From Leucobacter soli (lineage in GTDB: Bacteria > Actinomycetota > Actinomycetes > Actinomycetales > Microbacteriaceae), in contig NZ_CAJVAP010000018.1 in NCBI RefSeq assembly GCF_910593785.1, positions 1 through 64,000 of the forward strand: 64,000 nt of DNA, written 5' to 3'. Below, one piece after another: positions 41,567 to 55,755 of this stretch; position 1 is the first letter of the stretch; the number at the start of each line of letters is the position of its first letter. Position numbers and translations under genes: made by a program. The notes under the pieces are model-generated. The model had not been told where the DNA came from. It saw only the letters and a program-made list of their open reading frames with translations, and did no database searches.

Positions 41567-42840
41567 CCCTGATCCGTCCCTTCCGCCTCGTCGGCCATCC
41601 GCTGGGGGAGGAGGTGCCCCATGCGGTCGCGCTTCGTCTTCAGGTAGTCGGTGTTCTGCTCCGTCAGGCCGACGAAGAGCGGCACGCGCTCCGTCACCTC
41701 GACCCCGTAGCCCTTGATCTGGGTCACCTTGTCGGGGTTGTTCGTGAGCAGCCGCACGCTGGTGAGTCCGAGGTCGTCCAGGATCTCCGCCGCGGCCGTG
41801 TAGTCGCGCGCATCCCCGGGGAGCCCGAGCTGCAGGTTCGCGTCGAGCGTGTCGATCCCGGCCTCCTGCAGCTGGTAGGCGCGGAGCTTGTTGGCGAGGC
41901 CGATGCCCCGGCCCTCCTGCCCGCGCAGGTAGACGACGACACCGCCGCGCTGCTGGACCAGGTCGAGGGCGGCGTGCAACTGCGGCCCGCACTCGCACTT
42001 CAGCGAACCGAATGCCTCGCCCGTGATGCACTCCGAGTGCACTCGCACCAGTGCGTCGTCGCCCGGCATCGACCCGTCGGGGGCGGCCGCGATGAGCGCG
42101 AGGTGGTCGACGCCGCTCCGCCGGTCGCGGTAGGCGCGCATGCGGAACGGCCCGTGCTCGGTGGGCACGAGGGTGTCCGCCTTCAGGCTCACCTGGCGAT
42201 GCGGGACGGGAGCCGCAGGTGCGCTCGTCGGGTCGTGCTCCTCGAGGTAGGCGATCAGCTGCTCGATCGTGACGACCGGAACGCCTTCGGCGGCGCCCAG
42301 CTCGAGCAGCCCGGGCAGGCGCATCATCTCGCCGTCCTCGGCCACGATCTCGGCGATCATCGCGACCGGCCGCAGGCCCGCGAGGCGCATCAGCTCGACG
42401 CTCGCCTCGGTGTGCCCGGCGCGTGCGCGCACGCCGCCGTCGACCGCGCGCAGCGGGAGCACGTGCCCGGGGCGCCGCACGTCGGTGGGGACGGCCTCGG
42501 GGTTGGCGAGCGCGCGCAGGGTCGTGGTGCGATCCTTCGCGCTGATGCCGGTCGTCACGCCCTCGGCCGCATCGACCGTGACCGTGTACGCCGTCCCGCG
42601 CACATCCTCGTTCTGCTCGACCATCATCGGGAGCTCGAGCTGGTTCGCGATATCGTTCGACATCGGCGCGCAGAGCAGGCCGGAGGAGTGGCGGACGGTC
42701 CAGGCCACCCAATCTCGGGTCGCGAGCTCCGCGGAGAGGATCACGTCACCCTCGTTCTCGCGGTTCTCGTCGTCGGCGACGATCACGGGGCGGCCGTCGC
42801 GGATCGCGGCGATCGCCTCTTCGATGGTGCTGATGCTCAT
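41563..42840 (-). CDS. ribBA: bifunctional dihydroxybutanone-phosphate synthase / GTP cyclohydrolase II
   Basis: The 425-residue protein holds RibB in residues about 1-205 (DDENRENEGDVI, SSGLLCAPM, GHVLPLRA, GHTEASVELMRLAG) and RibA in about 215-420 (VRVHSECITGEAFGSLKCECG with zinc Cys residues, YLRGQEGRGIGL, TNNPDKV). RibB makes the four-carbon unit from ribulose 5-phosphate; RibA opens GTP. The 3' half of the gene overlaps ribH, and the start overlaps the ribE stop, each by four bases. Confidence 0.97.
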   Translation of the reverse strand: MSISTIEEAIAAIRDGRPVIVADDENRENEGDVILSAELATRDWVAWTVRHSSGLLCAPMSNDIANQLELPMMVEQNEDVRGTAYTVTVDAAEGVTTGISAKDRTTTLRALANPEAVPTDVRRPGHVLPLRAVDGGVRARAGHTEASVELMRLAGLRPVAMIAEIVAEDGEMMRLPGLLELGAAEGVPVVTIEQLIAYLEEHDPTSAPAAPVPHRQVSLKADTLVPTEHGPFRMRAYRDRRSGVDHLALIAAAPDGSMPGDDALVRVHSECITGEAFGSLKCECGPQLHAALDLVQQRGGVVVYLRGQEGRGIGLANKLRAYQLQEAGIDTLDANLQLGLPGDARDYTAAAEILDDLGLTSVRLLTNNPDKVTQIKGYGVEVTERVPLFVGLTEQNTDYLKTKRDRMGHLLPQRMADEAEGTDQG

Positions 42841-43619
42841 ACCTGGGTTCCTTCGGGGTGGGGATCGGCGGATGCGGTGCCGGTGGAGATGCCGGTCGCG
42901 GCGTCGGAGTCCGCGCGGGCGCCGAAGCGCAGCATGCGCGCGACGTGGCGGGCGAGGATGTCGGTCTCGAGGTTCACGCGGTCGCCGGGGGCGAGCGCGC
43001 CGAGGGTGGTGGCGACGAGCGTCTCGGGGATCAGCGAGACCTCGAACCAGGGATCCGGATCCGCCGCGTCGGCGATGTCGGAGATCGTGAGGGAGACCCC
43101 GGCGAGGGTCACCGAGCCCTTGTCGACGAGCAGCGGGGCGAGCTCGGGGGCGAGCGAGAAGCGCAGTGTCCTCCAGCCGCCGGCCGTCTCGCGGTCGGCG
43201 TGACCGGCGCTGTCGTGACCGGCGCTGTCGCGCTCGGTGCCATCGTGCTCGGTGCCGTCGTGGGGCGTGACGGAGCGCAGCTCGGCCGTGCCGTCGACAT
43301 GCCCCTGCACGATGTGCCCGCCCAGGCGGCTGTCGACGCGGGCGGCGCGTTCGAGGTTGACGCGATCGCCGACGCGCAGTTCGCCCAGCGTCGACATCCG
43401 CACCGATTGCTCCATGACGTCGGCGGTGAACGTGCCGCCGGGGCCCGAGCCGTCCGCGCCCAGCTCGATGACCGTCAGGCAGACGCCGGAGACCTGGATC
43501 GAATCGCCGTGGCCGGCGTCGCTCGTGACCCGCGGACCGCGCACGGTCAGCCGCAGCGAGTCGCCGACGGGTTCGACGGCGACGACCTCGCCGATCTCCT
43601 CGATCAATCCGGTGAACAT
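42837..43619 (-). CDS. ribE: riboflavin synthase, alpha chain
   Basis: RibE dismutates two lumazine molecules to riboflavin. The 260-residue protein keeps the two-fold repeated barrel: MFTGLIEEIGEV with GVCLTVIEL, and SRLGGHIVQGHVDGTAEL followed by GVSLTISDI. Family members are usually about 200-215 residues. The extra length comes from a loop near residue 125 built of four 15-bp units (43201-43260), encoding DGTEH, DGTER, DSAGH and DSAGH, and from a longer C-terminus. AGGAGAGGGAGA precedes the ATG. Confidence 0.94.
   Translation of the reverse strand: MFTGLIEEIGEVVAVEPVGDSLRLTVRGPRVTSDAGHGDSIQVSGVCLTVIELGADGSGPGGTFTADVMEQSVRMSTLGELRVGDRVNLERAARVDSRLGGHIVQGHVDGTAELRSVTPHDGTEHDGTERDSAGHDSAGHADRETAGGWRTLRFSLAPELAPLLVDKGSVTLAGVSLTISDIADAADPDPWFEVSLIPETLVATTLGALAPGDRVNLETDILARHVARMLRFGARADSDAATGISTGTASADPHPEGTQV
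43201..43260 (-). repeat. four 15-bp tandem units inside ribE
   Basis: TGACCGGCGCTGTCG occurs twice exactly, followed by two related units CGCTCGGTGCCATCG and TGCTCGGTGCCGTCG. All are in frame and add a His/Asp-rich loop to riboflavin synthase. Confidence 0.9.
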
Positions 43620-43635
43620 GATGTCTCCCTCTCCT

Positions 43636-44856
43636 CTACCCGTCATTCTGCGCCTCTTCGCGAGATCCTGCACCGCGGGAGTCTGCTCCGCCGGATCCCG
43701 TACTACTTCCGGATCCTGCACCGTTACCGGGCGGTGCGGCCGGGCCTGCCGCACGGGCGATGGCGGCGTGCACGAGCAGATCGTCGCCCAGATGCTGGAC
43801 CTCGGCTTCTTCGAGGCGCAGGATCCCCGACATGCCGGTGATGCCGAGATCGCCGAGTGCGAGCTTCGGGCCGCCGAGCAGTGCCGGCGCCACATAGACG
43901 AGCACCTCGTCGGCGAGACCGGCGGCGACCAGGGCGCTCGCGACGGTCGGGCCGCCCTCGACGAAGAGCCGGCGGATGCCGCGCTCGCTCAGTTGCGCGA
44001 GGTGGCCGGCGAGGTCGCACCCGTCGAAGCGGAGCGGCTCGGCGGCGCCCCGAGCGGCGAGAGCCGGATGCTGCCGGATCCGGGCCTCGGCGGGGATCTC
44101 GCGCCGCCCGAGCACGACCGGCAGCGGTTGCTCAGCGGCCGGTACGAGCAGTTCGCCGCCCTCCGCGCGTGCGGTCAGCGCGGGGTCGTCGGCGAGGAGC
44201 GTGCCGGTCCCGACGAGGATCGCGTCGGCCAGCGCCCGCCGGCGATGCACATCGGCGCGCGCCTGCGGGCCGGTGATCCAGCGGCTGCTCCCGTCGCTCG
44301 CGGCCGCGCGCCCGTCGAGGGTCTGCGCCCACTTCACCGTGACGAACGGCCGCCGTCGATCCGGTTGCGACGGCTCCGGGACGGGAGTATGGCTCCGCGC
44401 CGTTCCGTGCTGCCGCGCCAGCCACGGTGCGAGCAGGGCGCGCCCCTCGGCCTCGAGCACGCCTCCGCGCACCTCGACGCCCGCCGCGCGGAGCGTATCC
44501 GACCCGCCTCCGGCGAGCGGGCCCGGATCGGCGATCGCATAGGCGACCGCAGCGATCCCGGTCTCGGCGAGACGCTGCGCGCAGGGGCCCGTCCGGCCGG
44601 TGTGATTGCAGGGCTCCAGCGTCACGACGGCCGTGAGCTCGTGCGCGCGGTCGCGCCACTCGGCGGGCAGGCGATCGAGCGCATCGATCTCGGCGTGCGG
44701 CGTACCGGCTCCGCGGTGCCAGCCCTCGGCGACGATGCGGCCGGTCGGGTCGAGCAGCGTGCAGCCGACGCGCGGATTCACGTCGTCGACGGGGCTGCGA
44801 AGCGCGAGGTCGAGGGCGCGGCGCATCGCGTCCGCCAGCAGCCCGCTCTCCAACAC
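43636..44856 (-). CDS. ribD: bifunctional deaminase/reductase of riboflavin synthesis
   Basis: RibD deaminates the pyrimidine product of GTP cyclohydrolase II and reduces its ribose. The deaminase zinc site is HAEIDAL with TLEPCNHTGRTGPC; the reductase domain has FVTVKWAQTLDGRAA, SRWITG and LFVEGGPTVASAL. About 406 residues from the GTG. The open frame reaches 45051, but its first 65 codons lie in the FMN riboswitch, so a GTG or TTG at 44856-44851, just after GGGGAAG, is the likely start. The Gly/Ser-rich C-terminal tail ends in a REP-like sequence shared with 11902-11996. It is first in the rib operon, 16 bases before ribE. Confidence 0.9.
   Translation of the reverse strand: MLESGLLADAMRRALDLALRSPVDDVNPRVGCTLLDPTGRIVAEGWHRGAGTPHAEIDALDRLPAEWRDRAHELTAVVTLEPCNHTGRTGPCAQRLAETGIAAVAYAIADPGPLAGGGSDTLRAAGVEVRGGVLEAEGRALLAPWLARQHGTARSHTPVPEPSQPDRRRPFVTVKWAQTLDGRAAASDGSSRWITGPQARADVHRRRALADAILVGTGTLLADDPALTARAEGGELLVPAAEQPLPVVLGRREIPAEARIRQHPALAARGAAEPLRFDGCDLAGHLAQLSERGIRRLFVEGGPTVASALVAAGLADEVLVYVAPALLGGPKLALGDLGITGMSGILRLEEAEVQHLGDDLLVHAAIARAAGPAAPPGNGAGSGSSTGSGGADSRGAGSREEAQNDG
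43641..43675. repeat. partial REP-like element overlapping the ribD/ribE junction
   Basis: CGTCATTCTGCGC followed by CGAGATCCTGC resembles half of the double-hairpin element at 11902-11996. It lies within the last codons of ribD, so the ribD C-terminus (EEAQNDG) derives from the repeat. Confidence 0.4.
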
Positions 44857-44913
44857 AGCTTCCCCGATCCTGCGCGCCGGGGGCTGCGGGGGCCCGACGG
44901 TGCGGGTTTCCGC

Positions 44914-45047
44914 GTTCCTCTCATCCGGACTTGCACGCGGTCTGACCCGTGCATCACCGTCGGTACCGGAATTCCACCGGATCGGCCTCGCAGGTGCGAG
45001 GTTCGTGGACTTTGACCACCGGTTCGGATTCTCACCGACCCCGGAAC
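44914..45047 (-). promoter_or_regulatory. FMN riboswitch (RFN element) of the rib operon
   Basis: On the minus strand the aptamer opens with GTTCCGGGGTCGGTGAGAAT (the RFN 5' block), continues with CCGAACCGGTGGTC, GGTGGAATTCCGGTACCGAC and closes with AGTCCGGATGAGAGGAAC; GTTCC and GGAAC form P1. All conserved junction segments are present in order. The expression platform is the roughly 58-base G/C-rich leader up to ribD, which could hide the GGGGAAG ribosome site. TACAGT on the minus strand, just upstream at about 45057-45062, is a candidate -10 box. High FMN should shut the operon off. Confidence 0.93.
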
Positions 45048-45173
45048 ACATACTTACTGTATCCCGTGGTCGACAGTCCTCTTGTCGAACCGGTTGCCGA
45101 AGGCCGAGACGGCCATCGGCGGCGTCGGCCCGCAGAGCCGAGAAATCGGCTCTGCTCGGAGGGCCTGGCCGCA

Positions 45174-45316: not shown

Positions 45317-46363
45317 TCAGGCCTGGAACGCTGGCACGACGTGCTCGATGAACAGCTCGAGCGAGCGCTTCTTCTCCGCGAAGGTCAGGCTGCTGTCGCT
45401 CCAGATGCTGTACTCCGAGACGCCGAGCGACTCGTAGTGACGGACCCGCTCGATCACCTCTGCGGGGGTGCCGATCATCGCGGTGCGGTGGAGCGAGTCG
45501 AGCTCGAACTCGGGCCGATCGGCGAACTTCTCCTCCGGGCTCGGGTCGAGGAAGCCGTTGACCGGCGTCGTCTTGTTGCCGAACCATGCGTCGAAGTAGC
45601 GGTAGAAGCGGTTGATGGCGGTCGCGCCGACCTTCCAGCCCTCCGGATCGCTCTCGTCGTGCACGTAGGTGTGGCGCAGCACCATGAGGTCGGGGCGCTT
45701 CTCCACCTCGGGATGGTTCGCGATCGCGGTCTCGAACTTGCCGACGAGATCCTCGACCTCCTCGTCGCCCTTCATGAGCGGGGTCACCATGACGTTGCAT
45801 CCGTTCGCGACGGCGAAGTCGTGCGACTCGGGGCTGCGCGCCGCGACCCACACGGGCGGGTTCTTCTGCACCGGCTTCGGCACGCTCGTCGCGGCGGGGA
45901 ACTGGTACACCTCGCCGTCGTGCGCGTAGTCGCCGTCCCACAGCTTGTTCACGGTCGCGACGACCTCGTTCATGGCCTTGCCGCCATCGGTGGCCGGCAT
46001 GCCGTTCAGCATCCGGTCGAACTCGAACTGGTAGGCGCCACGGGCGACTCCGAGTTCCGCGCGGCCATTGCTGATCACGTCGAGCAGCGCGGTCTCGCCC
46101 GCGGTGCGCAGCGGGTTCCAGAACGGCGCGATGATGGTGCCCGCGCCGAGGCGGATCTTCGTCGTCAGCGCCGCGAGGTTCGCGAGCTGCGACATCGGGT
46201 TCGGCGACACGGTGTACTCCATGCCGTGGTGCTCACCGATCCAGACCGTGCTGAACCCGCCGGCCTCGGCGAGCAGCGTCAGCTCGACGAGCTCCTCCCA
46301 GTGCTGCCGGTGCGAGATCGAATCGTCGTAGCGCTCCATATGGATGAACAGCGAGAAACGCAT
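45317..46363 (-). CDS. luciferase-like (LLM class) flavin-dependent monooxygenase
   Basis: The 348-residue protein is a bacterial-luciferase-fold oxygenase that uses reduced flavin supplied by a separate reductase. Typical segments are the N-terminal beta strand MRFSLFIHME, GFSTVWIGEHHGMEY, TTKIRLGAGTI, NPLRTAGETALLDVISNGRAELGVARG and the C-terminal VIERVRHYESLGV. It closes the operon headed by the GntR gene; GAGGAGAAGGAGGG precedes the ATG. The likely reductase partner is the SnoaL-flavin reductase fusion encoded divergently. Opening of a nitrogen heterocycle is inferred from the gene set; the substrate is not known. Confidence 0.92.
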   Translation of the reverse strand: MRFSLFIHMERYDDSISHRQHWEELVELTLLAEAGGFSTVWIGEHHGMEYTVSPNPMSQLANLAALTTKIRLGAGTIIAPFWNPLRTAGETALLDVISNGRAELGVARGAYQFEFDRMLNGMPATDGGKAMNEVVATVNKLWDGDYAHDGEVYQFPAATSVPKPVQKNPPVWVAARSPESHDFAVANGCNVMVTPLMKGDEEVEDLVGKFETAIANHPEVEKRPDLMVLRHTYVHDESDPEGWKVGATAINRFYRYFDAWFGNKTTPVNGFLDPSPEEKFADRPEFELDSLHRTAMIGTPAEVIERVRHYESLGVSEYSIWSDSSLTFAEKKRSLELFIEHVVPAFQA

Positions 46364-46395
46364 GTGCCTGCCCTCCTTCTCCTCTTCGCGTACGG

Positions 46396-46605
46396 CTACT
46401 GGGCCGCGCTCGCCGCGGCGTTGCGCTCGGCGATCGTCTGGTTGCCGCGGGACCAGTGCTCGTGCTCGATCTCGCGCACGATCACGGTGATGGCGTCGCT
46501 CTTCGCGTCCACGGTCTCCTCGGCCGCGCGATGCACGGCGTCGACGAGGGCGCGGAGCTGCTCGGGCGTGCGCCCGCGGGCGATGGAAATGTCGATCAGT
46601 GGCAT
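46396..46605 (-). CDS. 4-oxalocrotonate tautomerase family protein
   Basis: The 69-residue protein begins MPLIDISIARGRTPEQLRALV; after removal of Met, Pro1 is the catalytic base of this superfamily. HRAAEETVDAKSDAITVIVREIEHEHW is the usual second half. Tautomerases isomerise enol/keto or double-bond positions in ring-cleavage products. It lies four bases after the aldehyde dehydrogenase stop and 32 bases before the monooxygenase gene, so it should act in the same pathway. Confidence 0.9.
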   Translation of the reverse strand: MPLIDISIARGRTPEQLRALVDAVHRAAEETVDAKSDAITVIVREIEHEHWSRGNQTIAERNAAASAAQ

Positions 46606-46609
46606 GGTG

Positions 46610-48094
46610 TCAACCTCTCATTACAAAGGGGTCCGCGACTGGACCCTCATCGGTATTGATCCACACGCTCTTCAGGCGCGTGTACTCGTGCATCGATTCG
46701 ATGCCGTGCTCGATGCCGACCCCGGAGCTCTTGAAGCCCTGCCGGGGGGACATCGGGGACATGGCGCGATAGGTGTTGACCCAGATCGTGCCCGCGTCGA
46801 GCCTGCGCGCCATCCGGTGCGCGCGGGCCAGGTTCTGCGTCCAGACGCCGGCGGCGAGGCCGTACTCGGTGTCGTTCGCGAGACCGACCAGCTCGTCCTC
46901 GTGCTCGAACGGCATGATCGCGGCGACGGGGCCGAAGATCTCCTCGCGCACCACCCGCATGTCGTTGTCCACATCCGTGAGCACAGTCGGCGAGTAGAAG
47001 TAGCCGGGGAGCTCGAGCCCGTCGGGCCGCCCGCCGCCCGCGTGCACGGTCGCGCCCTCCTCTGCGCCGAGCTTCACGTAGGAGTCGACCTTCGCGAGCT
47101 GGTCGGCGAAGGCGAGCGGGCCGAGCTCGGTGTCGTCGCCGAGCGGATCGCCGATCCGGATCGATCGAGCCCGCTCCGTGACGCGCTCGAGCAGCTCGTC
47201 GTAGACCGCCTTGTGCGCGAACACGCGGCTGCCCGCGATGCAGGTCTGGCCCGCGGCGGCGTAGATGCCGGCGACCACGCCCATGGCGGCGTTCGCGACG
47301 TTCGCGTCGTCGAACACGATGTTCGGGCTCTTGCCCCCGAGCTCGAGCGTGCAGCCGATGAAGCGGGCGGCCGCCTCTGCGGCGATGCGCGACCCGGTCG
47401 CGGTCGAGCCGGTGAACGAGATCTTCGCGAGCGCCGGGTGGCTCACGAGCGGTGCGCCGGCCTCTCCGCCGAAGCCGGTGACGACGTTCACCGCGCCGGC
47501 GGGGAAGCCGGCCTCGTAGGCGAGCTCGGCGAGGCGGAGCACGGTGCGCGACGTGTACTCGCTCGGCTTGATGACGACCGTGTTGCCCGCGGCGAGCGCC
47601 GGGGCGATCTTCGAGGTCGTGAGCGTGAGGGGGGAGTTCCACGGAGTGATGGTGCCCACCACGCCCAGCGGCTCGCGCTGGGTGTAGTTCAGGATCTCGA
47701 GCGAGGTGGTCGGCACCTGCGCGCCCTGGATCTTGTCGGCCAGGCCCGCGTAATAGTAGTAGTACTCGGGCAGGGAGCGCATCTGGCCGCGCATCTCGCG
47801 CAGCAGCTTGCCGTTGTCGAGGCTCTCCATCATGGCGAGCTGGTCCGCGTTCTCACCGATCAGGTCGCCGAGGCGGCGCAGCAGGTGGCCGCGCTTGGTC
47901 GCGGTGAGCCCGGCCCACGCGGGCGAGGCGAAGGCGGCCTGCGCCGACGCGACCGCGCGATCCACGTCTTCGGCGGTGCCGCGGGCGGCCTCGTAGAGGA
48001 CCTCGAGCGTCGCGGGGTTGGTGCTCTCGAAGTAGGCGCCGTCGGCGGGGGCTGCGTGCTCCCCGCCGATGAAGTGGTCGAGGCGTTCGGTCAC
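46610..48094 (-). CDS. NAD(P)-dependent aldehyde dehydrogenase
   Basis: The 494-residue enzyme shows the ALDH superfamily cofactor and active-site motifs: TPWNSPL, VIKPSEYT, FTGSTATG, general-base Glu near 251 (LELGGKSP) and nucleophile Cys near 285 (AAGQTCIAGSR), then EEIFGPV and the C-terminal SPRQGFKSSG. The GTG start overlaps the stop of the hydrolase gene by four bases. Within the cluster it would oxidise the aldehyde left by ring opening, or succinate semialdehyde; which one cannot be decided. Confidence 0.93.
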   Translation of the reverse strand: MTERLDHFIGGEHAAPADGAYFESTNPATLEVLYEAARGTAEDVDRAVASAQAAFASPAWAGLTATKRGHLLRRLGDLIGENADQLAMMESLDNGKLLREMRGQMRSLPEYYYYYAGLADKIQGAQVPTTSLEILNYTQREPLGVVGTITPWNSPLTLTTSKIAPALAAGNTVVIKPSEYTSRTVLRLAELAYEAGFPAGAVNVVTGFGGEAGAPLVSHPALAKISFTGSTATGSRIAAEAAARFIGCTLELGGKSPNIVFDDANVANAAMGVVAGIYAAAGQTCIAGSRVFAHKAVYDELLERVTERARSIRIGDPLGDDTELGPLAFADQLAKVDSYVKLGAEEGATVHAGGGRPDGLELPGYFYSPTVLTDVDNDMRVVREEIFGPVAAIMPFEHEDELVGLANDTEYGLAAGVWTQNLARAHRMARRLDAGTIWVNTYRAMSPMSPRQGFKSSGVGIEHGIESMHEYTRLKSVWINTDEGPVADPFVMRG

Positions 48095-48846
48095 GGCCGC
48101 CCTCCTTCCGTTTCGTCGATGAATGAGATCAGGGCCGAGGCGAGCGCGGGCGCGTCCTCGACGGGCATCATGTGGCGGGTGCCGGGAACGATCACCGCGC
48201 GGCCGTCCGGGATCGCCTCGGCGAGGCGGCGGGACATCTCGGGCGTGGAGCCGGGGTCGTGCTCGCCCGTGATCGCGAGTGCCGGCGCGTGGATCCCGCC
48301 GAGTTCGGGGCCGATCTCGCGATCCCCGCGCACGAACACGGTGTAGGCGTGGAGGTACGACTCGATGTCGTTCGCGAGCAGGGTCGCCCGGGTCGCGTCG
48401 ATGATCCCCTGCGGCACCGACGTGGTGGCGGCCGGATACCAGCGCTCGATCGAGGCCTCGACTCCTTCGGCGAAGTCGACGCCGGCGGTCGCGAGCCGCG
48501 CTTCGACCTTCTCCGCCTCCTCCGGGGTGCGGCGGCAGACGGAATTGACGCTGGTGAGGGTGGCCACGCGCGCGGGGGCGAAGCGGGCGATGTGCTGCGC
48601 GATCAGTGCGCCGAGCGAGAACCCGACGAGGTGCACCGGCTCCGCCGGCATGCGGTCGAGCACGTCTGCGCCGAGCGTGGCGAGCGTTTGCGCCTCGCGC
48701 AGCGGGGGCTGCGCCCCGTGGCCGGGCAGGTCGAGCGCGAGGCACGGTCGGTCGGCGGACTCGAGCGACGCGATGAGGGGCGCCCACATGGCGCGGTCGA
48801 GTCCGACGCCGTGCAGCAGCACGACGGGGGTCGGTGAGTCGGGCAT
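48091..48846 (-). CDS. alpha/beta hydrolase (RutD/enol-lactonase-like)
   Basis: The 251-residue soluble hydrolase has oxyanion motif LLHGVGLDRAMW, LDLPGHG, the nucleophile elbow VGFSLGALIAQ with Ser at about 94, an Asp in ITGEHDPGSTP and a His in GTRHMMPVEDA. It is the size of 3-oxoadipate enol-lactonase, RutD and N-formylmaleamate deformylase. It probably cleaves an amide, formamide or lactone formed after ring opening. It sits between the DUF1185 genes and the aldehyde dehydrogenase, 11 bases from the former. Confidence 0.88.
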   Translation of the reverse strand: MPDSPTPVVLLHGVGLDRAMWAPLIASLESADRPCLALDLPGHGAQPPLREAQTLATLGADVLDRMPAEPVHLVGFSLGALIAQHIARFAPARVATLTSVNSVCRRTPEEAEKVEARLATAGVDFAEGVEASIERWYPAATTSVPQGIIDATRATLLANDIESYLHAYTVFVRGDREIGPELGGIHAPALAITGEHDPGSTPEMSRRLAEAIPDGRAVIVPGTRHMMPVEDAPALASALISFIDETEGGRP

Positions 48847-48857
48847 CGCGGCTCCCG

Positions 48858-49421
48858 TCAGTCCTCGCCGAGGGCGGCCAGCCGCTGCTGCGGGCGGCCC
48901 TGCGCGGCGCCGGCGAGCGCGACGAGGATCTCGTCCGCGTGCGGCGCGTCCGCGACGCGGGCCTCGACGCTCTGGTGGTGCGAGCGGATCCTCATGTCGG
49001 TGTAGTGCTTCAGCGGGATGTCGAAGGCGACGCCGGCGGGGCCGCGCTTCTCGACGGCGGGCAGCAGCGTGGTGGCGTTCGCCGCATTGCGGAAGTGGTC
49101 GCCGAAGCGGAGGTTGTGGATGATGCCCGAGCCGTGCTCGATCTCGCCGTTCAGGCCGACGATGGCGGCCTTGCCGTAGGCCTCGAGGGGGGCGCCGAGC
49201 GCCTCGATGACGCGGGGGGCGAGCAGCGCGCCGAGATCGGAGGCGATGGAGTTGATGCCGGGGAGCAGATCCTGGACGAAGCCCTGGCCCTTCCACGGGT
49301 TGTCGAACACCGCGCCGACGATGGCGACACGGGCGATCGGGTCGACGTCGCGGCCGCCCTCGAGGGCCGTCTCCTCGACGATGGTGAAGAGCTTGCGGTA
49401 GGTGAATGCTGCGGTGCTCAC
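48858..49421 (-). CDS. DUF1185 (amino acid synthesis family) protein A
   Basis: The 187-residue protein belongs to Pfam family AA_synth/DUF1185. Conserved segments are RKLFTIVEETALEGG, VAIVGAVFDNPWKGQGFVQDL, KAAIVGLNGEIEHGSGIIHN and DIPLKHYTDMRIRSHHQ. The family's activity is not established; members often come as pairs beside luciferase-like monooxygenases. The GTG start overlaps the stop of the paralogue just upstream by four bases. The pair may form a hetero-oligomer. Confidence 0.88.
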   Translation of the reverse strand: MSTAAFTYRKLFTIVEETALEGGRDVDPIARVAIVGAVFDNPWKGQGFVQDLLPGINSIASDLGALLAPRVIEALGAPLEAYGKAAIVGLNGEIEHGSGIIHNLRFGDHFRNAANATTLLPAVEKRGPAGVAFDIPLKHYTDMRIRSHHQSVEARVADAPHADEILVALAGAAQGRPQQRLAALGED

Positions 49422-50086
49422 AGGACGATCTCCTTCAGGATCTCGGAGGTGACGGGGCGATCGGTGGCCCGGTCGCCGATGCGGGCGAAGGGGCGGGGGC
49501 CGGTCGATGCTGCGGCGAGGACGGCGATCTCGCCGGGGTGCGGCGCATCGGCGAGGTTCGCCTCGATCGTCTGGTAGTAGTCGCGCGTCGCTGCGGCGGT
49601 CTTGTGCCACATCGGCACGCGCAGCAGTTCGCCGGCGTCGGCCCGGCCGTCGACGAAGCAGATGATCGAGGTGCCGCCGAGCGCCTCGCGCAGCAGGTTG
49701 CCGAAGTAGGGGGTGTGGATCAGCGCGCCGGCGTGCTCGAGCTCGCCCGCCGTGCCCACGAGCGCGGCCTTGCCGAACGCCTCGACCTGGTCGGCGCCGC
49801 CGAGCGCGTCGAGCAGGCGATCGCTGATCAGCTTCGCCAGCAGGGGGGCGACGCGCCGGGTCTCGGGCTGCAGGTCCTCGTCGGTGCCGGTTCCGGCCCA
49901 GGGGTTCCGGATGACCGCCGTGGTGACGGCTCGGCGGATCGCGGGGGCGCCCTCCCGAGGGATCTCCTCGGTCTGGGTGAAGATGCGGCGGAGGCCGGCG
50001 GCCCGGGCGATATCCCCGTAGTCGGTCAGCGATGACCGGGTGCTGAGGTCGGTCGTTCGCGCGGCGGGTTCGGCGGGGTTGTTCAT
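49418..50086 (-). CDS. DUF1185 (amino acid synthesis family) protein B
   Basis: The 222-residue paralogue of the next gene shares the same landmarks: RRIFTQTEEIPREG, AVIRNPWAGTGTDEDLQP, KAALVGTAGELEHAGALIHT and RVPMWHKTAAATRDYYQ. It has an extra N-terminal stretch of about 20 residues. AGGAG lies six bases before the ATG, and 36 bases separate it from the GntR gene. Divergence between A and B at the HYTDMR/WHKTAA block suggests they have separate roles. Confidence 0.88.
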   Translation of the reverse strand: MNNPAEPAARTTDLSTRSSLTDYGDIARAAGLRRIFTQTEEIPREGAPAIRRAVTTAVIRNPWAGTGTDEDLQPETRRVAPLLAKLISDRLLDALGGADQVEAFGKAALVGTAGELEHAGALIHTPYFGNLLREALGGTSIICFVDGRADAGELLRVPMWHKTAAATRDYYQTIEANLADAPHPGEIAVLAAASTGPRPFARIGDRATDRPVTSEILKEIVL

Positions 50087-50122
50087 CGGTGGCTCCTGAT
50101 GCCTGGTGATCGTGTGAAGGGA

Positions 50123-50815
50123 CTATGCGTCGTCGGACTCGGCGAAGGCCGCGATGGTGGCGGACTCCCGGGTCCTCGAGATGTGGCGACGGGTGGTGAG
50201 TTCTGCGAAGAGCGGATCCTTCGACTGGATGGCGAGGAGGATCTGCCGGTGCTCGTCCATGGACGCGTCGAGGCGGCCCGGGAGGGAGAGCGTCTGCGTG
50301 ACGATGCGATGGTAGGCGAGCTGGTTCATCAGCAGCTCGTAGTGCTCGCCGAGCTTGCGGTTGTCGGCGCCGGTGACGAGCGTGCGGTGGAAGTCGTGGA
50401 CCAGGGTGGCGTAGGCGGTCCGGTCTCCGGCACGCACCGCTTCGCGCTCGTTCTCGACGTTGTGCGCGAGACTGCGCAGCTCGGGCACGTCGCCGCGGCG
50501 GGCGAGCAGGCTCGCAGCGAGGCCCTCGAGCGACTCCTTGAGCTCGAAGAGCTCGAAGATCTCCTTGCGCGTGGGCTTGCGGACGAACGTCCCGACGCGC
50601 GGGCGGATCTCGACGAGACCCTCGCGCTCCAGCTGCTTGAGCGCCTCCCGGATCGGGGTGCGGCTGACCGCGAACTCTTCGGCGAGGGCGGTCTCCGCGA
50701 GGAGTTCGCCCGGCAGGGCCGTGCCGCTGACGACGAGGCGGCGCAGCCGATCCAGCAGGGGCGCATCGGTTCCGGGCGTTGCCGGCTGCGTCGTGGTGGC
50801 CATGCTCTGTTGCAT
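50123..50815 (-). CDS. GntR-family regulator, FCD type
   Basis: The 230-residue regulator has an N-terminal winged helix (PGELLAETALAEEFAVSRTPIREALKQLEREGLVEIRPRVG) and a C-terminal FCD ligand-binding domain with metal-site His residues (LVHDFHRTLV and the RRHISR end). It heads the minus-strand operon. TACAGT lies six bases before the ATG, a leaderless layout, and palindromic TTGNATNCAA-like sites overlap both this start and the divergent one, so it likely represses itself and the divergent operon until a pathway ligand binds. Confidence 0.93.
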   Translation of the reverse strand: MQQSMATTTQPATPGTDAPLLDRLRRLVVSGTALPGELLAETALAEEFAVSRTPIREALKQLEREGLVEIRPRVGTFVRKPTRKEIFELFELKESLEGLAASLLARRGDVPELRSLAHNVENEREAVRAGDRTAYATLVHDFHRTLVTGADNRKLGEHYELLMNQLAYHRIVTQTLSLPGRLDASMDEHRQILLAIQSKDPLFAELTTRRHISRTRESATIAAFAESDDA

Positions 50816-50839
50816 ACATCAACTGTAATTTGTATACGA
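50810..50839. promoter_or_regulatory. putative GntR operators and promoter of the minus-strand operon
   Basis: Two half-palindromic sites, TTGCATACAT (50810-50819, over the GntR start codon) and TTGTATACGA (50830-50839), flank the minus-strand -10 box (TACAGT, 50822-50827). Both resemble FCD-GntR operators of the TTGTATACAA kind. Confidence 0.55.
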
Positions 50840-50906
50840 CAGGAGCGCAAGCGCCGGCCGGTTGCGCGGTAGAAATTACTGAAAATTAGGCATTTTTGCG
50901 ATGGTG

Positions 50907-50948
50907 TTGACGATCTGCGGTGATCGAATTATGATCACTTGCATGCAA
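50907..50948 (+). promoter_or_regulatory. leaderless promoter with overlapping GntR-like operator
   Basis: TTGACG (50907-50912), a 17-base spacer and TATGAT (50930-50935) form a near-consensus sigma-70-type promoter. The ATG follows seven bases after the -10 box, so transcription should begin at or next to the start codon. The perfect palindrome TTGCATGCAA (50939-50948) covers this ATG and is the best operator candidate. Confidence 0.7.
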
Positions 50949-51902
50949 CATAACATCAAGGGCGCTGTGCAGAAGGCCTGGGAGGCCGCCTGGGATCGTG
51001 GCGAGGTCGACGCCTTCGACGAGATCCTCCATCCCGACTACCGGCGAGTCAGCACGCGATCCGGCCGGATCACCGACGCCGCCTCGCTCAAGCAGGAGAT
51101 CCTCGACGCCCGATCCGCGTTCCCGGATCTCGAGACGACGATCGACCGCATCGTCGTCGACGACGATGGAGAGAGCGCCGCCGTCTTCTGGCACTCCGTC
51201 GGCACCTTCGGCAACGACCTGAACGGCGTGCCCGCGACCGGCCGCCGCGTCGAAACCCGCGGGTCCAACCTGCTCGAGCTGCGCGACGGCAGGGTCGCGA
51301 GCGAGCAGGTGACCTGGGACCAGAGCGAGCTGCTCGCCGACGTCGGCGTCCCCTCGCTCCGCTCCGCGTTCGAGGAGGCGGCCGAGGAGGTCGTCGTCGA
51401 CGACCTGAGCGGCGTCCCGAGCATCGACGCGCTCAAGGCCTTCAACCGGCAGTTCATCACCGGAGTCACGGTGGTCACCACGATCGACGAGGAGGGCAAG
51501 CCGCGCGGGCTGGCCGCCAACTCGTACGCGTCGGTGTCGCTCGATCCGCCGCTCGTGCTGATCTGCGTGCAGAAGTCGACGTCGACGCACGCGCCGCTCT
51601 ACAAGGCGACGCACCTCGGCATCAACATCATGAGCGTCGAGCAGCGCGACACCGTCGGAGTCTTCGCCTCGCGCGAGCCCGACAAGTTCGCCCGGCTCGC
51701 CTGGCATCACGGCCCGGCGGGGAGCCCGCTCATCGACGGCTCCGCGGCCTCGATCGAGGCGGAGATCAAGGAGCGGTTCCTCACGAAGACGCACACCGTC
51801 TTCATCTCGAAGGTCACCCATGCGGAGGCCGCTGAGGTCGACGCCATGATCTACAAGGCCGGCAAGTTCTTCGACAGCTCAGAGCTCAGCGAGCTCCAGT
51901 AG
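50943..51902 (+). CDS. SnoaL-like domain fused to a flavin reductase
   Basis: The 319-residue protein joins an NTF2/SnoaL-like domain (residues about 1-135, with WEAAWDRGEVDAFDEILHPDYRR and LLELRDGRVASEQ) to an FMN-binding flavin reductase domain of the RutF/HpaC type (FNRQFITGVTVVTT, GLAANSYASVSLDPPLVLICV, NIMSV, GKFF). It would supply reduced flavin to the luciferase-like monooxygenase. The SnoaL domain may bind the ring substrate or product; that is inferred. The ATG at 50943 is set by the promoter; an upstream ATG at 50931 overlaps the -10 box. Confidence 0.9.
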   Translation: MQHNIKGAVQKAWEAAWDRGEVDAFDEILHPDYRRVSTRSGRITDAASLKQEILDARSAFPDLETTIDRIVVDDDGESAAVFWHSVGTFGNDLNGVPATGRRVETRGSNLLELRDGRVASEQVTWDQSELLADVGVPSLRSAFEEAAEEVVVDDLSGVPSIDALKAFNRQFITGVTVVTTIDEEGKPRGLAANSYASVSLDPPLVLICVQKSTSTHAPLYKATHLGINIMSVEQRDTVGVFASREPDKFARLAWHHGPAGSPLIDGSAASIEAEIKERFLTKTHTVFISKVTHAEAAEVDAMIYKAGKFFDSSELSELQ

Positions 51903-51971
51903 CCCCGACAGCCCTGCTGGCTCCATCATCTCCATCGGAAACGACTACGACACGAGGAAGTGCAGATTCGT

Positions 51972-53636
51972 ATGAGCGACAACGACACGCGCGACGAGGT
52001 CCATCACGCTCCGCCGCCCGCCCCGCACCTGGGCACCGAGAGCACCGAGACGGGGTTCCTCACCTCGTCGGTCACCGTCGCCGAGGCCGAGCGGCTGAAG
52101 CACAGGCCCGGCGCGGTGTTCTGGATCTCGATCGGACTCGTCATCGCATTCACCCTGTGGGCGATGATCTCGCCCGAGACGCTCGGCGGATCGATGACGG
52201 CCGCGATGAACTGGGCGGCGGCGAGCATCGGCTGGAGCTACCTGCTGGTCACGCTGGGCTGCATCATCCTGCTCGTCTATCTGGCGATGAGCCGTTTCGG
52301 CGGGATCCGCCTCGGCACCGATGAGGATCGGCCGGAGTTCAACACCTGGGCCTGGCTGGCCATGATCCTCTCGGCAGTCATGGGCATCGGCCTGATCAGC
52401 TACGGCGTCGCCGAGCCGATCTCCCACTTCGTGACCCCGCCGCACGGTCTCGCCGAGCCCGAGACGATGGACGCAGCCGTGCGCGCCATGCAGTTCTCGT
52501 ACTTCGACTGGGGCCCGCACGCCTGGGCCGTCTTCGGCGTCTTCGGCCTCGCGATCGCGTACTCGACCCACCGCCGCCACAACACCGGTCTGGTCTCGCC
52601 CATGCTGCGCCCGATCTTCGGCGACCTGGTCGACGGCTGGTTCGGCAAGATGATCGACATCTTCGCGATCATCGCGACGCTCTTCGGCACCACCACCTCG
52701 CTCGGTCTCGGAGCCTCCCAGATCATCGAGGGGATGTCGCAGGTGTTCGGTCTGCCGACCGGACTGTTCCCGCAGATCGTCATCATCGCCGTGATCACCG
52801 TGATGTTCACGCTCTCCGCCCTCTCGGGTGTGCACCGAGGCATCAAGTGGCTCAGCCAGATCACGATGCTGCTCTCCGCAGGGCTCGGCGTCTACGTGCT
52901 CTTCGCCGGCCCGACCAACTTCGTCTCGAACCTGTTCTTCCGCTCCGTCGGCCAGTACCTGAGCGACTTCTTCCAGGTCGCGCTGCTCACACCGGCGACT
53001 CCGGACGACGTCGCGTGGATGCAGTGGTGGACCTACTTCATGATGGCCTGGTGGCTGAGCTGGGGCGCCTTCGTCGGCGTGTTCCTCGCGAAGATCTCGA
53101 AGGGTCGCACGATCCGCCAGTTCGTCGCTGGCGTCATGGGGATCCCGAGCCTCGTGTTCTTCGCGTGGTTCACCATCATGGGCGGCTCCGCCATCAACTT
53201 CGACATGGAGCGCGGCGCCGGCATCGGCGCGCGGGCGGCGGAAGACGTGAACTCGGCGTTCTTCGCGCTGCTCGGCGAACTGCCGCTCACGACGCTCACC
53301 TCGATCATCGCGATCATCCTCGTCGTGCTCTACTTCGTCTCGGGCGCCGACGCGAACACCTTCGTGCTCAGCATGCTCTCCTCCCGCGGCACGCTCGAGC
53401 CCACGCGGCCGGTGCTCACGGTCTGGGGCGTTCTGACCGGCCTCTCGGCCGTCGCGATGCTCATCGTCGGCGGGCTCTCCGCGCTGCAGCAGGCGGCCAT
53501 GCTCTCGGCGCTGCCGTTCACGGTCATCGTCGCGCTGCTCGGTATCTCCCTCGTCAAAGAACTGCAGAAGGATCACCGATTCGTCGGCCTGCACACGGTC
53601 ACCCGGGACGAGATGGATCAGTTGATCAGCAGATAG
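51972..53636 (+). CDS. BCCT-family betaine/choline/carnitine-type transporter
   Basis: The 554-residue protein has about twelve transmembrane helices. The BCCT hallmark in helix 8 is WTYFMMAWWLSWGAFVGVFLAKISKGRTIRQF, including the WWxxW aromatic box that binds trimethylammonium groups in BetP. GIGLISYGVAEPISH marks the substrate-path helix. BCCT substrates are quaternary-ammonium zwitterions, so an N-methylated heterocyclic betaine would fit this island. The ATG is chosen over a GTG four codons upstream because of GAGGAAG about 12 bases before it; osmotic regulation domains are short or absent. Confidence 0.93.
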   Translation: MSDNDTRDEVHHAPPPAPHLGTESTETGFLTSSVTVAEAERLKHRPGAVFWISIGLVIAFTLWAMISPETLGGSMTAAMNWAAASIGWSYLLVTLGCIILLVYLAMSRFGGIRLGTDEDRPEFNTWAWLAMILSAVMGIGLISYGVAEPISHFVTPPHGLAEPETMDAAVRAMQFSYFDWGPHAWAVFGVFGLAIAYSTHRRHNTGLVSPMLRPIFGDLVDGWFGKMIDIFAIIATLFGTTTSLGLGASQIIEGMSQVFGLPTGLFPQIVIIAVITVMFTLSALSGVHRGIKWLSQITMLLSAGLGVYVLFAGPTNFVSNLFFRSVGQYLSDFFQVALLTPATPDDVAWMQWWTYFMMAWWLSWGAFVGVFLAKISKGRTIRQFVAGVMGIPSLVFFAWFTIMGGSAINFDMERGAGIGARAAEDVNSAFFALLGELPLTTLTSIIAIILVVLYFVSGADANTFVLSMLSSRGTLEPTRPVLTVWGVLTGLSAVAMLIVGGLSALQQAAMLSALPFTVIVALLGISLVKELQKDHRFVGLHTVTRDEMDQLISR

Positions 53637-53666
53637 TCGCCTTACGCGTACCGGTCGCCGACCGGG

Positions 53667-53705
53667 GGTGCACCCGTCCCGCGAGATCGGCGGGACGGGC
53701 GCACC
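53667..53705 (+). terminator. hairpin between the BCCT and NCS1 genes
   Basis: Arms of 16 bases (GGTGCACCCGTCCCGC and GCGGGACGGGCGCACC) pair with one mismatch around a seven-base loop. No T run follows, so partial termination or mRNA protection is more likely than a full stop. Confidence 0.55.
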
Positions 53706-53776
53706 GAGACCACTGAGCCGTTCGCGGCACCAGCACACCCAAGAGAAAGCCCATCCGAGTGAAAGCAGAGACATCG

Positions 53777-55192
53777 ATGTCCGACACGACCCCTGGAACT
53801 GCCGAGCCGCAGTACGGCACGTCGCTCACGCGAACGGAACCGTTCGCCACCGAGCACATCCCGGTCGCCGAACGCCACGGCCACCCCCGCCACCAGTTCA
53901 CCCTCTGGTTCGCAGCGAACATGGTGCTGGCGGTGATGGTCTCCGGCTTCTTCTCCTCGCTCTTCGGGCTCTCCGTGCTGCAGGGGCTCAGCGCCGTCGC
54001 CGTGGGGACGCTGCTCGGCGCCATCGTCATGGGCGTCCTGGCCGGCATCGGCACGAAGATGGGCGTGCCGCAGCAGGTGCAGGCCCGCGGGCCGATGGGC
54101 TACTTCGCGAACTTCGTGCCGATCGCGGTGCTCACCGTCATCTCGGCGATCGGGTGGACGGCCGTGAACACGGTGTTCGCGGTCATCGCCCTGCAGATGC
54201 TCGTCGACGTGCCGTTCTGGCTGGCCGCGGCGGTCATCTTCGTCGTCCAGGCGGTCTTCGCGATCTGGGGGCACAACCTGATCCACCTGATCAACAAGAT
54301 CGCCACCGTCGTGCTCGCGATCCTCTTCGCCGTCATCACCGTGCTCTCGATGCAGCAGGTGGACTTCGCCGTCGGCGTGAACCCGGAGGCGCCGTACTAC
54401 ATGGGCGAGGTGGCCGGCTGGATCACCTTCGCCGGCTTCTTCTTCGCCTACGTGATGACGTGGACGCCGTTCGCCTCCGACTTCTCGCGCTACCTGCCGC
54501 AGACCACTTCGCACGGCAAGGTGACCTTCTTCACGGCGACCGGCACCTTCGTCGCCATGATGTGGCTCGGCGGCATCGGCGTGCTCGTGTCGAGCTTCGC
54601 CGGCGAACTCGACGCGATTCCCGCGCTCGCCGAGCTCACCGGCTCGTGGGCGCCCGTCGCGATGCTCACCGTGGTCGTCTCGACGCTTCCGGTGAGCGCC
54701 ATGAACCTCTACGGCGGCTCGCTGTCGCTGCTCACGATCCGCATTCCCGTGAACCGGATCGTCGGCGTCGTGCTGATCGCGCTGATCAGCCTCGGGGTCA
54801 CGCTGCTCATGCAGACGAACCCCTACGGCAGCTTCTACGACTTCCTCAACATCCTCGCCTACCTGGTGGTGCCGTTCAGCACCGTGCTGCTGCTCGACTA
54901 CTACCTGCGGATGCGCAGTCTGGGCCACCTCGCGACCGAGGAGCTCTTCGACACGCGCCGCTCGGTCGAGTGGGGCTTCGTGGCCTGGGTCGTCGGCTGC
55001 GCCTTCTCGGCGCTGTTCTGGACCTCGACGCTCTTCACCGGCCCGCTCGCGAGCGCGTTCGCCGGGTTCGGGGACGTGTCGTTCGTGGCCGGCGCGCTCG
55101 CGGCGACGATCGCCTACGTCGCGCTTCGCCCGTTGCCCCCGCTCTCCTCGCTGCTCCGCGGCGGGCGGGATCGCGTCGAGGCGTCGGCATGA
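53777..55192 (+). CDS. NCS1-family nucleobase/heterocycle transporter
   Basis: The 471-residue protein has about twelve transmembrane helices and the pattern of NCS1 (cytosine, allantoin, hydantoin, nicotinamide-type) permeases: QFTLWFAANMVLAVMVSG, GTKMGVPQQVQARGPMGYF, the FAYVMTWTPFASDFSRYLP block and YDFLNILAYLVVPF. It imports small N-heterocycles by proton or sodium symport. I chose the ATG giving MSDTTPGT, six codons after a possible GTG. It overlaps the amidohydrolase gene by four bases. Confidence 0.9.
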   Translation: MSDTTPGTAEPQYGTSLTRTEPFATEHIPVAERHGHPRHQFTLWFAANMVLAVMVSGFFSSLFGLSVLQGLSAVAVGTLLGAIVMGVLAGIGTKMGVPQQVQARGPMGYFANFVPIAVLTVISAIGWTAVNTVFAVIALQMLVDVPFWLAAAVIFVVQAVFAIWGHNLIHLINKIATVVLAILFAVITVLSMQQVDFAVGVNPEAPYYMGEVAGWITFAGFFFAYVMTWTPFASDFSRYLPQTTSHGKVTFFTATGTFVAMMWLGGIGVLVSSFAGELDAIPALAELTGSWAPVAMLTVVVSTLPVSAMNLYGGSLSLLTIRIPVNRIVGVVLIALISLGVTLLMQTNPYGSFYDFLNILAYLVVPFSTVLLLDYYLRMRSLGHLATEELFDTRRSVEWGFVAWVVGCAFSALFWTSTLFTGPLASAFAGFGDVSFVAGALAATIAYVALRPLPPLSSLLRGGRDRVEASA

Positions 55193-55755
55193 GCGAGCCC
55201 CGCGAACGCACGGCGAGCGCACTCGTCGTCATCGACATGCAGCACGTCTTCCGCGACGCGGACAGTCAGTGGGCGACGCCGGGCTACGACCGGGCGGCCG
55301 AGCGGATCTCGCGGCTGACCGACGCCTACCGGGGCGAGGTGATCTGGACGCGTTTCGTGCGGGATCCGCAGGAGTCGGGCAGCTGGTCCGACTACTACGC
55401 GCGCTGGAACGAGTGCCGCGAGCCCGAGGACTCGCCGGTGTGGGATCTCACCATGCCGGTCGCCGATGGCGATGACATCGTGAGCCTGCCGACCTTCTCG
55501 AAGTGGGGGGAAGAGCTCGCGGGGCTCACCAGCGAGCGGCAGCGGCTCGTCGTCTGCGGCGTCGCCACCGACTGCTGCGTGCTCTCCACCGTGCTCGGAG
55601 CGGTCGATGCGGGCAAGCACGTGACGCTCGTGGCCGATGCCTGCGCCGGCGTCACCGATCGCGCGCACGAGCAGGCGATCGAGCTGATGGGGCTGCTCGG
55701 CCCGATGGTCGAGGTCGTCACGACGGAGGAGCTCGTGGCGGCCCGGGTGGGCTGA
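55189..55755 (+). CDS. isochorismatase-fold cysteine hydrolase (amidohydrolase)
   Basis: The 188-residue enzyme has the family's Asp in VVIDMQ and the nucleophile Cys with its cis-peptide motif GVATDCCVLSTV, close to nicotinamidase, N-carbamoylsarcosine amidase and RutB. In the usual catalytic-Lys region it reads VSLPTFSKW, where K-P-x-Y-S would be expected, so the Lys seems replaced by Leu, though a shifted Lys in FSKW could serve. It would hydrolyse an amide or carbamoyl product of the pathway. It is the last gene of the plus-strand set and is followed by a terminator. Confidence 0.88.
   Translation: MSEPRERTASALVVIDMQHVFRDADSQWATPGYDRAAERISRLTDAYRGEVIWTRFVRDPQESGSWSDYYARWNECREPEDSPVWDLTMPVADGDDIVSLPTFSKWGEELAGLTSERQRLVVCGVATDCCVLSTVLGAVDAGKHVTLVADACAGVTDRAHEQAIELMGLLGPMVEVVTTEELVAARVG

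Follow-up and report, generated by a model that had tools for sequence, protein, structure and literature searches.

The question raised by the 64,000-nucleotide window analyzed here (Leucobacter soli contig NZ_CAJVAP010000018.1, positions 1 to 64,000) is which compound is degraded, and by which route, by the catabolic gene cluster that it carries at 45317–55755 around a luciferase-like flavin monooxygenase (LLM). We put a probability of about 0.6 on the cluster encoding an actinobacterial form of the trigonelline (tgn/trc) pathway. We are fairly confident of the assignment to an oxidative ring-cleavage route, and sequence comparison points to trigonelline (N-methylnicotinate), a plant alkaloid that occurs in coffee, as the likely substrate. 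The core of its pathway (LLM, flavin reductase, aldehyde dehydrogenase (ALDH), alpha/beta hydrolase and DUF1185 protein) was already known; new here are the actinobacterial additions, the apparently exchangeable BCCT or NCS1-plus-amidohydrolase front ends, a single genomic palindrome, and the flavin-gene neighborhood. If the trigonelline reading is true, oxidative ring cleavage extends to a widespread actinobacterial branch, the LLM of which is also found in many Pseudomonas species.

Genes of the cluster

The following genes were intact open frames with strong family matches in profile searches, in agreement with the sequence-only reading of this DNA, which had placed the same genes here.

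45317–46363, minus strand: LLM, TgnB-type by context, proposed ring-opening oxygenase (PF00296, 7e-60)
46396–46605, minus strand: 4-oxalocrotonate-tautomerase-like enzyme with Pro after Met1, proposed isomerase of the ring-opened intermediate (PF01361, 4e-16)
46610–48094, minus strand: ALDH, proposed TgnC-like role (PF00171, 5e-169)
48091–48846, minus strand: alpha/beta hydrolase, proposed TgnD-like role in enamide hydrolysis (PF00561, 2e-23)
48858–49421, minus strand: DUF1185/AA_synth paralogue 2 (AAS2), TgnF family (PF06684, 3e-55; PDB 2qtp, 4e-36)
49418–50086, minus strand: DUF1185/AA_synth paralogue 1 (AAS1), TgnF family (PF06684, 2e-50)
50123–50815, minus strand: GntR/FCD regulator (PF07729, 1e-23; PF00392, 2e-20)
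about 50943–51902, plus strand: SnoaL domain fused to flavin reductase, proposed TgnA role (PF01613, 1e-34; PF07366, 4e-22)
51960–53636, plus strand: BCCT betaine-type transporter (PF02028, 5e-168)
about 53774–55192, plus strand: NCS1-type permease (PF02133, 5e-31)
55189–55755, plus strand: isochorismatase-fold amidohydrolase (PF00857, 1e-31)

Outward from the divergent promoter, the minus strand encoded the GntR/FCD regulator, AAS1, AAS2, alpha/beta hydrolase, ALDH, tautomerase and LLM, and the plus strand encoded the SnoaL–flavin reductase, BCCT, NCS1 and isochorismatase-fold proteins. By their coordinates, AAS1 and AAS2, hydrolase and ALDH, and NCS1 and isochorismatase genes overlapped by 4 bp, which fits co-translated genes. 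With the reductase frame counted from 50931, the SnoaL domain (PF07366) occupied residues 13–137 and PF01613 residues 173–314. This N-terminal domain was absent from the list in the sequence-only reading, as were the flavin mononucleotide (FMN) riboswitch and riboflavin (rib) operon next to the cluster and a second, diverged cluster on another contig. The LLM fold was confirmed by an AlphaFold model (pLDDT 84.7), for which the best Foldseek matches were flavin monooxygenases and luciferases.

This core recurred in 55 actinobacterial loci (LLM identity, 72–93%), and the gene set is therefore no chance assembly. To be counted, a locus needed four core genes and an LLM of ≥70% identity; the tally excluded Pseudomonas loci and, as incomplete, L005, L006 and L036. 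All were drawn from the best 80 of 326 relatives plus one plasmid, in which contig ends can hide genes. The host genome comprised 67 contigs, totaling 2.87 Mb.

Relation to known trigonelline-type clusters

In enzyme systems of this family, the reductase makes reduced flavin and the LLM activates O2, followed by aldehyde oxidation and hydrolysis. The trigonelline pathway tgnABCDEF was reportedly described in Acinetobacter baylyi ADP1 by Perchat et al. in 2018. The UniProt accession of TgnB is Q6F9F6 (PMC11354265). The sequence-only reading had called the island unassigned; however, the same core makes up the trigonelline-type clusters of Acinetobacter and of S. meliloti pSymA, and the Leucobacter cluster probably works like, and probably is, a pathway of this type. 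No actinobacterial trigonelline pathway was found by title among the listed matches in the open-access literature on bacterial trigonelline, N-methylnicotinamide and pyridine catabolism.

Comparison of 13 representative loci yielded three LLM groups. Group A comprised actinobacteria and Pseudomonas (72–80% identity within the group), and group B comprised Acinetobacter, S. meliloti, R. johnstonii, Leisingera and Gemmobacter (69–87% within, 47–54% to A). Group C comprised Agrobacterium and R. phaseoli (42–44% to A) and also took in the second cluster of the host genome and that of a relative (LLM 35–42%). The window LLM was 72–76% identical to the three other group A representatives, and the closest relatives fetched were from Leucobacter (93–78%). 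Many LLM positions were common to A and B and missing from C, and these shared residues would speak for a trigonelline-type assignment. A quick LLM tree was built from 79 of 103 rows, after near-duplicate Pseudomonas rows and loci met twice had been dropped; the program warned that the long branches of B and C meet, and the branching order of A, B and C is not firm.

Like the tgn genes of A. baylyi, the window clusters an LLM oxygenase, flavin reductase, ALDH, alpha/beta hydrolase and DUF1185 protein together. An A. baumannii record (L088), unannotated in this region, had the order GntR, AA_synth, alpha/beta hydrolase, reductase, LLM, ALDH, NCS1-like permease, a 389-aa frame, succinate-semialdehyde dehydrogenase (SSADH), and a 127-aa frame that grouped with a CMD-family gene by sequence clustering. 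The SSADH scored above the TIGR01780 cut-off (690 vs 646 bits). Both this record and the window have an NCS1-like gene, whereas the window cluster is without SSADH. Relative to Acinetobacter, Leucobacter adds the SnoaL domain on the reductase, the tautomerase, a second DUF1185 gene and BCCT, and its cluster adjoins the rib operon. For the pathway roles other than SSADH (TgnE), the window cluster offered a partner flavin reductase (SnoaL-fused, 38% identical to that of Acinetobacter), a possible TgnB-type LLM (48% to L088), an ALDH of the TgnC family with a predicted TgnC role (46%), a hydrolase of the TgnD family with a predicted TgnD role (31% to L088, only 30–31% overall in this comparison), and two DUF1185 copies with the pocket residues kept for TgnF. 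Across group B as a whole, hydrolase identity was 30–38%.

On S. meliloti pSymA, the order was AA_synth, alpha/beta hydrolase, reductase, LLM, ALDH, NIPSNAP, ABC transporter and then a second ALDH frame, for which SSADH models scored best, below cut-off. This trc region shares the five-gene core with the window and has the SSADH-type ALDH, with an ABC transporter and NIPSNAP instead of BCCT/NCS1; no tautomerase and a single AA_synth gene were listed there, in a gene table that is incomplete. The LLM lay about 9 kb from nifT. A S. meliloti strain without pSymA did not grow on trigonelline (PMC4207669). R. johnstonii pRL10 had the gene order of pSymA with an annotated SSADH, and the core genes were also present in Leisingera and Gemmobacter. 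The Agrobacterium and R. phaseoli clusters likewise contained reductase, ALDH, LLM, hydrolase and AA_synth genes; they differed in the more distant LLM, an added CMD-family gene and other transporters nearby.

The DUF1185 pair had been described in the sequence-only reading as not explained by the Rut scheme, which stands; under the trigonelline scheme, however, the pair has a place, as DUF1185 is the TgnF family. This is because a DUF1185-type protein of coumarin degradation is called a homologue of TgnF of the A. baylyi trigonelline pathway in PMC7913881, where TgnF is also said to stimulate succinate-semialdehyde oxidation by TgnE.

Actinobacterial additions

The tautomerase gene was present in 54 of the 55 actinobacterial loci, and none was detected in the Pseudomonas loci at E 1e-5; its Pro was conserved across 13 aligned sequences. 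SnoaL domain and reductase were fused in 38 of the 55 loci and split in 16; in the remaining locus, L010, the gene failed the no-stop filter, though it was counted as full length in the 55-locus tally. No SnoaL part was found in six non-actinobacterial loci or in the host's second cluster, where reductase matches started at query residue 159 or later. Under the trigonelline reading, a function can be suggested for both the tautomerase and the SnoaL domain.

Glu, His and a C-terminal Arg were invariant in 56/56 rows of each DUF1185 paralogue, and ten single-copy relatives likewise kept them. The three residues aligned with the pocket residues Glu90, His93 and Arg176 of BB2672, with an offset of one that we infer. 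DUF1185 has a chorismate-mutase-like fold (PMC2954203). Its Pfam label is "Amino acid synthesis," whereas the trigonelline reading would favor a catabolic enzyme or helper that has this conserved pocket. A RidA-like role in enamine hydrolysis may be proposed for DUF1185.

Proposed route and end product

The following scheme is our inference. BCCT and/or NCS1 would import the substrate, the SnoaL–flavin reductase would make reduced FMN, and the LLM would use it with O2 for ring opening of an N-methylpyridinium carboxylate, with trigonelline as the likeliest candidate. The tautomerase and SnoaL domain may speed isomerization of the ring-opened (hemi)aldehyde, the ring-opened aldehyde would be oxidized by ALDH, and the alpha/beta hydrolase and DUF1185 pair would break the enamide/enamine, yielding methylamine, formate, CO2 and succinate semialdehyde. 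An SSADH encoded elsewhere in the genome would complete the route, while GntR would bind TTGYATRCAA to control both divergent operons and the neighboring rib operon would supply flavin. The sequence-only reading had proposed two-component LLM ring opening followed by aldehyde oxidation and amide hydrolysis, in a route related to that of trigonelline, and had taken the BCCT gene to favor a betaine; we judge both to be right. Its overall interpretation thus held for the type of route and needed revision on "unassigned," on DUF1185 and on "complete," the last because SSADH lies outside the island.

One SSADH scoring above its family cut-off was encoded elsewhere in the host genome. An SSADH-like second ALDH lay in the fetched stretch of 13 of the 55 actinobacterial loci; for the two that were checked, TIGR01780 was the best model, below its cut-off. 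Together with SSADH in 3/5 group B loci, these findings support succinate semialdehyde as the product.

Uptake genes and the isochorismatase-fold enzyme

Every one of the 55 loci encoded a candidate importer: BCCT only in 30, NCS1 only in 21, both in 4 and neither in 0, with both present in the window. The isochorismatase gene, found in 20 of the 55, occurred in 19/25 loci with NCS1 vs 1/30 without (Fisher 1e-8, ignoring kinship). The lone isochorismatase locus scored as without NCS1, L053, had a partial NCS1 gene (26%), and L004, also counted as without, carried a piece amounting to 25% of the query. On a tree of 56 rows, the link between NCS1 and isochorismatase held in a mean of 5.8/7 independent pairs and was never reversed (median p 0.031, range 0.016–0.25); the corresponding tests were weak for BCCT vs isochorismatase (median p 0.125) and NCS1 vs BCCT (median p 0.0625). 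An Asp/Lys/Cys triad, at its presumed positions, was conserved in 14 aligned isochorismatase sequences of the cluster.

A tentative explanation, which we regard as rather doubtful, is that two exchangeable front ends feed one core: BCCT would import the acid (betaine), and NCS1 with the isochorismatase-fold enzyme would import and hydrolyze an amide, such as N1-methylnicotinamide, to trigonelline. If this were true, the window, having both, would use a plant alkaloid and an animal vitamin B3 excretion product via one ring-opening core; the amidohydrolase activity would then be new, and a common metabolite would have an open fate.

Alternative substrates and routes

Several observations weigh against the trigonelline reading. 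The window LLM was only 47–54% identical to the Acinetobacter/Rhizobium group, and the equation of the Acinetobacter LLM group with the tgn group is our assumption, made from gene content. ALDHs of the actinobacteria were closer to those of Agrobacterium and R. phaseoli (51–55%; window, 52–55%) than to those of group B (45–47%; window, 46–47%), and the two identities together indicate that the substrate may have shifted. No SSADH gene was found in the window cluster, and none was annotated within the stretches fetched from Leisingera and Gemmobacter. For GMAS, which assimilates methylamine, six glutamine-synthetase-like matches were obtained in the host genome, none above cut-off.

The strongest alternative, though we consider it unlikely, is a divergence of the group in substrate: the same route would act on another pyridine or a related N-heterocycle, such as nicotinate, N-methylnicotinamide, a different N-methylpyridinium or some ring as yet without a name. 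The divergence of the group as a whole, the affinity of its ALDH to another type and the NCS1-plus-amidohydrolase option would fit this, and the second, diverged cluster of the host, with its ABC transporter, points to more than one substrate for the family. On the other side stand the LLM residues and product logic common to the trigonelline group. Moreover, all 24 of the genomes with an A-type LLM (17 via Pseudomonas-kind loci, 7 actinobacterial) gave a single match at E ≤ 1e-60, with no second match at group B level, as if one type replaced the other; this argument is weakened, however, by the finding that no group-B-level LLM was among the listed matches in 298 Pseudomonas genomes either.

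Pyridine degradation is considerably less probable. Arthrobacter sp. 68b, an actinobacterial host like ours, is said to degrade pyridine by an LLM route ending in succinate semialdehyde, but a small neutral pyridine should need neither BCCT nor NCS1, yet 55/55 loci encode one.

Least probable of the ring-opening alternatives is a Rut-like opening of a pyrimidine or amide ring. The Rut system of E. coli works alike, by flavin-dependent oxidative ring opening followed by amide/enamine hydrolysis, and the LLM, reductase, isochorismatase-fold, BCM-fold and alpha/beta hydrolase proteins of the window mirror RutA/F/B/C/D in kind. The profile scores were nevertheless far below cut-off for RutF (63.8 vs 254.75 bits) and RutD (48.5 vs 238.5), the RutA model was absent among the best 25 of 28 LLM matches and RutB among 4 isochorismatase matches, RutA formed a very long branch on the LLM tree, apart from the window LLM, and an isochorismatase gene in a minority of loci does not fit. 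Membership in Rut was rejected on the NCBIfam profiles and the comparison with the E. coli operon.

Scores against the sulfonate, sulfone and nitrilotriacetate LLM families (SsuD 30.5/518.2, SfnG 53/382.95, NtaA/DmoA 44/279.7 bits against cut-off) led to their rejection, and the clustering with a sulfonate or nitronate pathway that the sequence-only reading had named as evidence against itself was not seen in these profiles. No homarine degradation operon was found by title among the literature matches listed, and homarine is described as an unlikely substrate of the TgnA/B system in PMC8269262.

A palindrome in the divergent promoter

The divergent promoter contained an operator-like palindrome and two degenerate copies.

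50939–50948: TTGCATGCAA (class TTGYATRCAA), at the reductase start in the divergent promoter; sole exact site in the genome
50810–50819: degenerate copy with 1 mismatch, at the GntR start
50830–50839: degenerate copy with 1 mismatch

TTGYATRCAA matched exactly at a single position, both within the window and across the genome, and the reversed-pattern control had 0. With up to one mismatch, 14 genomic sites were found, three of them at the cluster, vs 18 for the reversed pattern. Sites with one mismatch are thus not enriched genome-wide, and the case depends instead on the exact match, on how it recurs in relatives and on the clustering of copies at this locus.

That recurrence was pronounced. 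Of 40 intergenic regions between divergent GntR and reductase genes (the window and 39 loci), 36 shared one 8-mer, a number that never exceeded 4 in 20 shuffles. Across the 55 loci (1.10 Mb) there were 58 exact TTGYATRCAA sites, 52 of which lay within −250 to +30 of the start of a cluster gene; 35 loci had at least one such site, and 20 had none at that stringency. Where the GntR gene lay elsewhere (L026, L050 and L057), the palindrome preceded AA_synth and/or BCCT. Because the sole exact site lies in the divergent promoter and the motif recurs at cluster promoters, the two halves are probably co-regulated; the sequence-only reading had held that a lack of co-regulation would count against it, and the conserved palindrome between the halves goes in its favor. 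GntR would bind TTGYATRCAA, and the trigonelline reading thereby predicts the operator of this regulator.

Riboflavin genes beside the cluster

About 270 bp downstream of the LLM gene begin an FMN riboswitch and the rib operon.

44909–45052, minus strand: FMN riboswitch of the adjacent rib operon (RF00050, 77.2 bits; gathering 66.2)
41563–45051, minus strand: rib operon, proposed flavin supply partner (RibD and RibBA by Pfam, PF01872 and PF00926/PF00925)

Among 54 genomes of the genus, 7, the host included, encoded the LLM at ≥79% identity, and two more had only 37–41% matches. The ribD gene, found in 52/54, adjoined the LLM gene in all seven LLM-bearing genomes (within roughly 0.3 kb in six, roughly 4 kb away in one), always with the LLM upstream of ribD, and FMN riboswitches were confirmed in the three further LLM loci of the genus that were searched. 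Outside Leucobacter, the surroundings of the cluster included genes for RibBA, RibB or riboflavin kinase in Arthrobacter, Pseudomonas, Mycobacterium and Geodermatophilus. In a raw count, flavin genes were found around the cluster in 13/81 loci (four from Leucobacter; five Pfam-confirmed), with 68 loci without them. The neighboring rib genes may supply FMN to the two-component oxygenase, and a repeated pairing of such a flavin-hungry enzyme with riboflavin genes is exposed.

The recurrence of the rib operon, riboflavin kinase, RibBA or NUDIX genes beside the cluster, and the NtaA/DmoA-type oxygenase that lies between cluster and rib operon in one Leucobacter, could be read as flavin or lumichrome catabolism, which is highly improbable. 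Some of the neighbors are genes of biosynthesis, headed by an FMN riboswitch in Leucobacter, and this fits supply over degradation; riboflavin lyase RcaE (5w48) was just a distant fold match to the LLM (Foldseek rank 41).

Two further features of this neighborhood were observed. A 38-base 5' part of the riboswitch was repeated identically on the minus strand (45211–45174 and 45059–45022), with the extra copy some 150 bp upstream of the complete riboswitch, which alone passed the Rfam threshold; six other Leucobacter-type loci each showed a single copy of the stretch in a motif scan. At one locus of the genus (L112, 10960–14194), an NtaA/DmoA-family LLM, a flavin reductase and an MFS transporter gene lay between cluster and rib operon. 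The best PDB match of this LLM was DszA (4.5e-102), with riboflavin lyase at 2.4e-62, and it is another FMN-dependent oxygenase beside a rib operon.

Pseudomonas loci and a second host cluster

In Pseudomonas taxonomy, assimilation of trigonelline is one of the classical variable traits. The Acinetobacter LLM was matched at E ≤ 1e-90 in 167/298 Pseudomonas genomes (best 8.9e-128), and the matches listed were 49–52% identical to it, which is the level of group A. Six Pseudomonas LLMs formed one clade (SH-aLRT 99) inside the actinobacterial LLMs, with support of 82 to 96 at the forks, several below 95. Pseudomonas AA_synth was 57–61% identical to group B, 55–57% to Agrobacterium/R. phaseoli and 43–50% to actinobacteria, and Pseudomonas ALDH was 54–57% identical to group B and 51–53% to actinobacteria. 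Because these partners are not of the actinobacterial type, the LLM looks to have entered, by transfer, a cluster of different partner genes.

In the host genome, the second, diverged cluster lay on contig 8 at about 47–58 kb (L111) and contained a flavin reductase, ALDH, LLM (38%), hydrolase, CMD-family gene, ABC transporter genes and a third DUF1185 gene; it probably serves another substrate. Near the LLM gene of one Pseudomonas locus (L064, 5966–7591), a methyl-accepting chemotaxis receptor gene was found and Pfam-checked; its sequence cluster had members in 14 loci, and the receptor may sense the substrate. In four Pseudomonas loci (L035, L065, L071 and L075), the LLM gene was not directly beside its usual partners, and in L035 and L071 it lay near ribBA and ABC transporter genes that clustered with those of S. 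meliloti.

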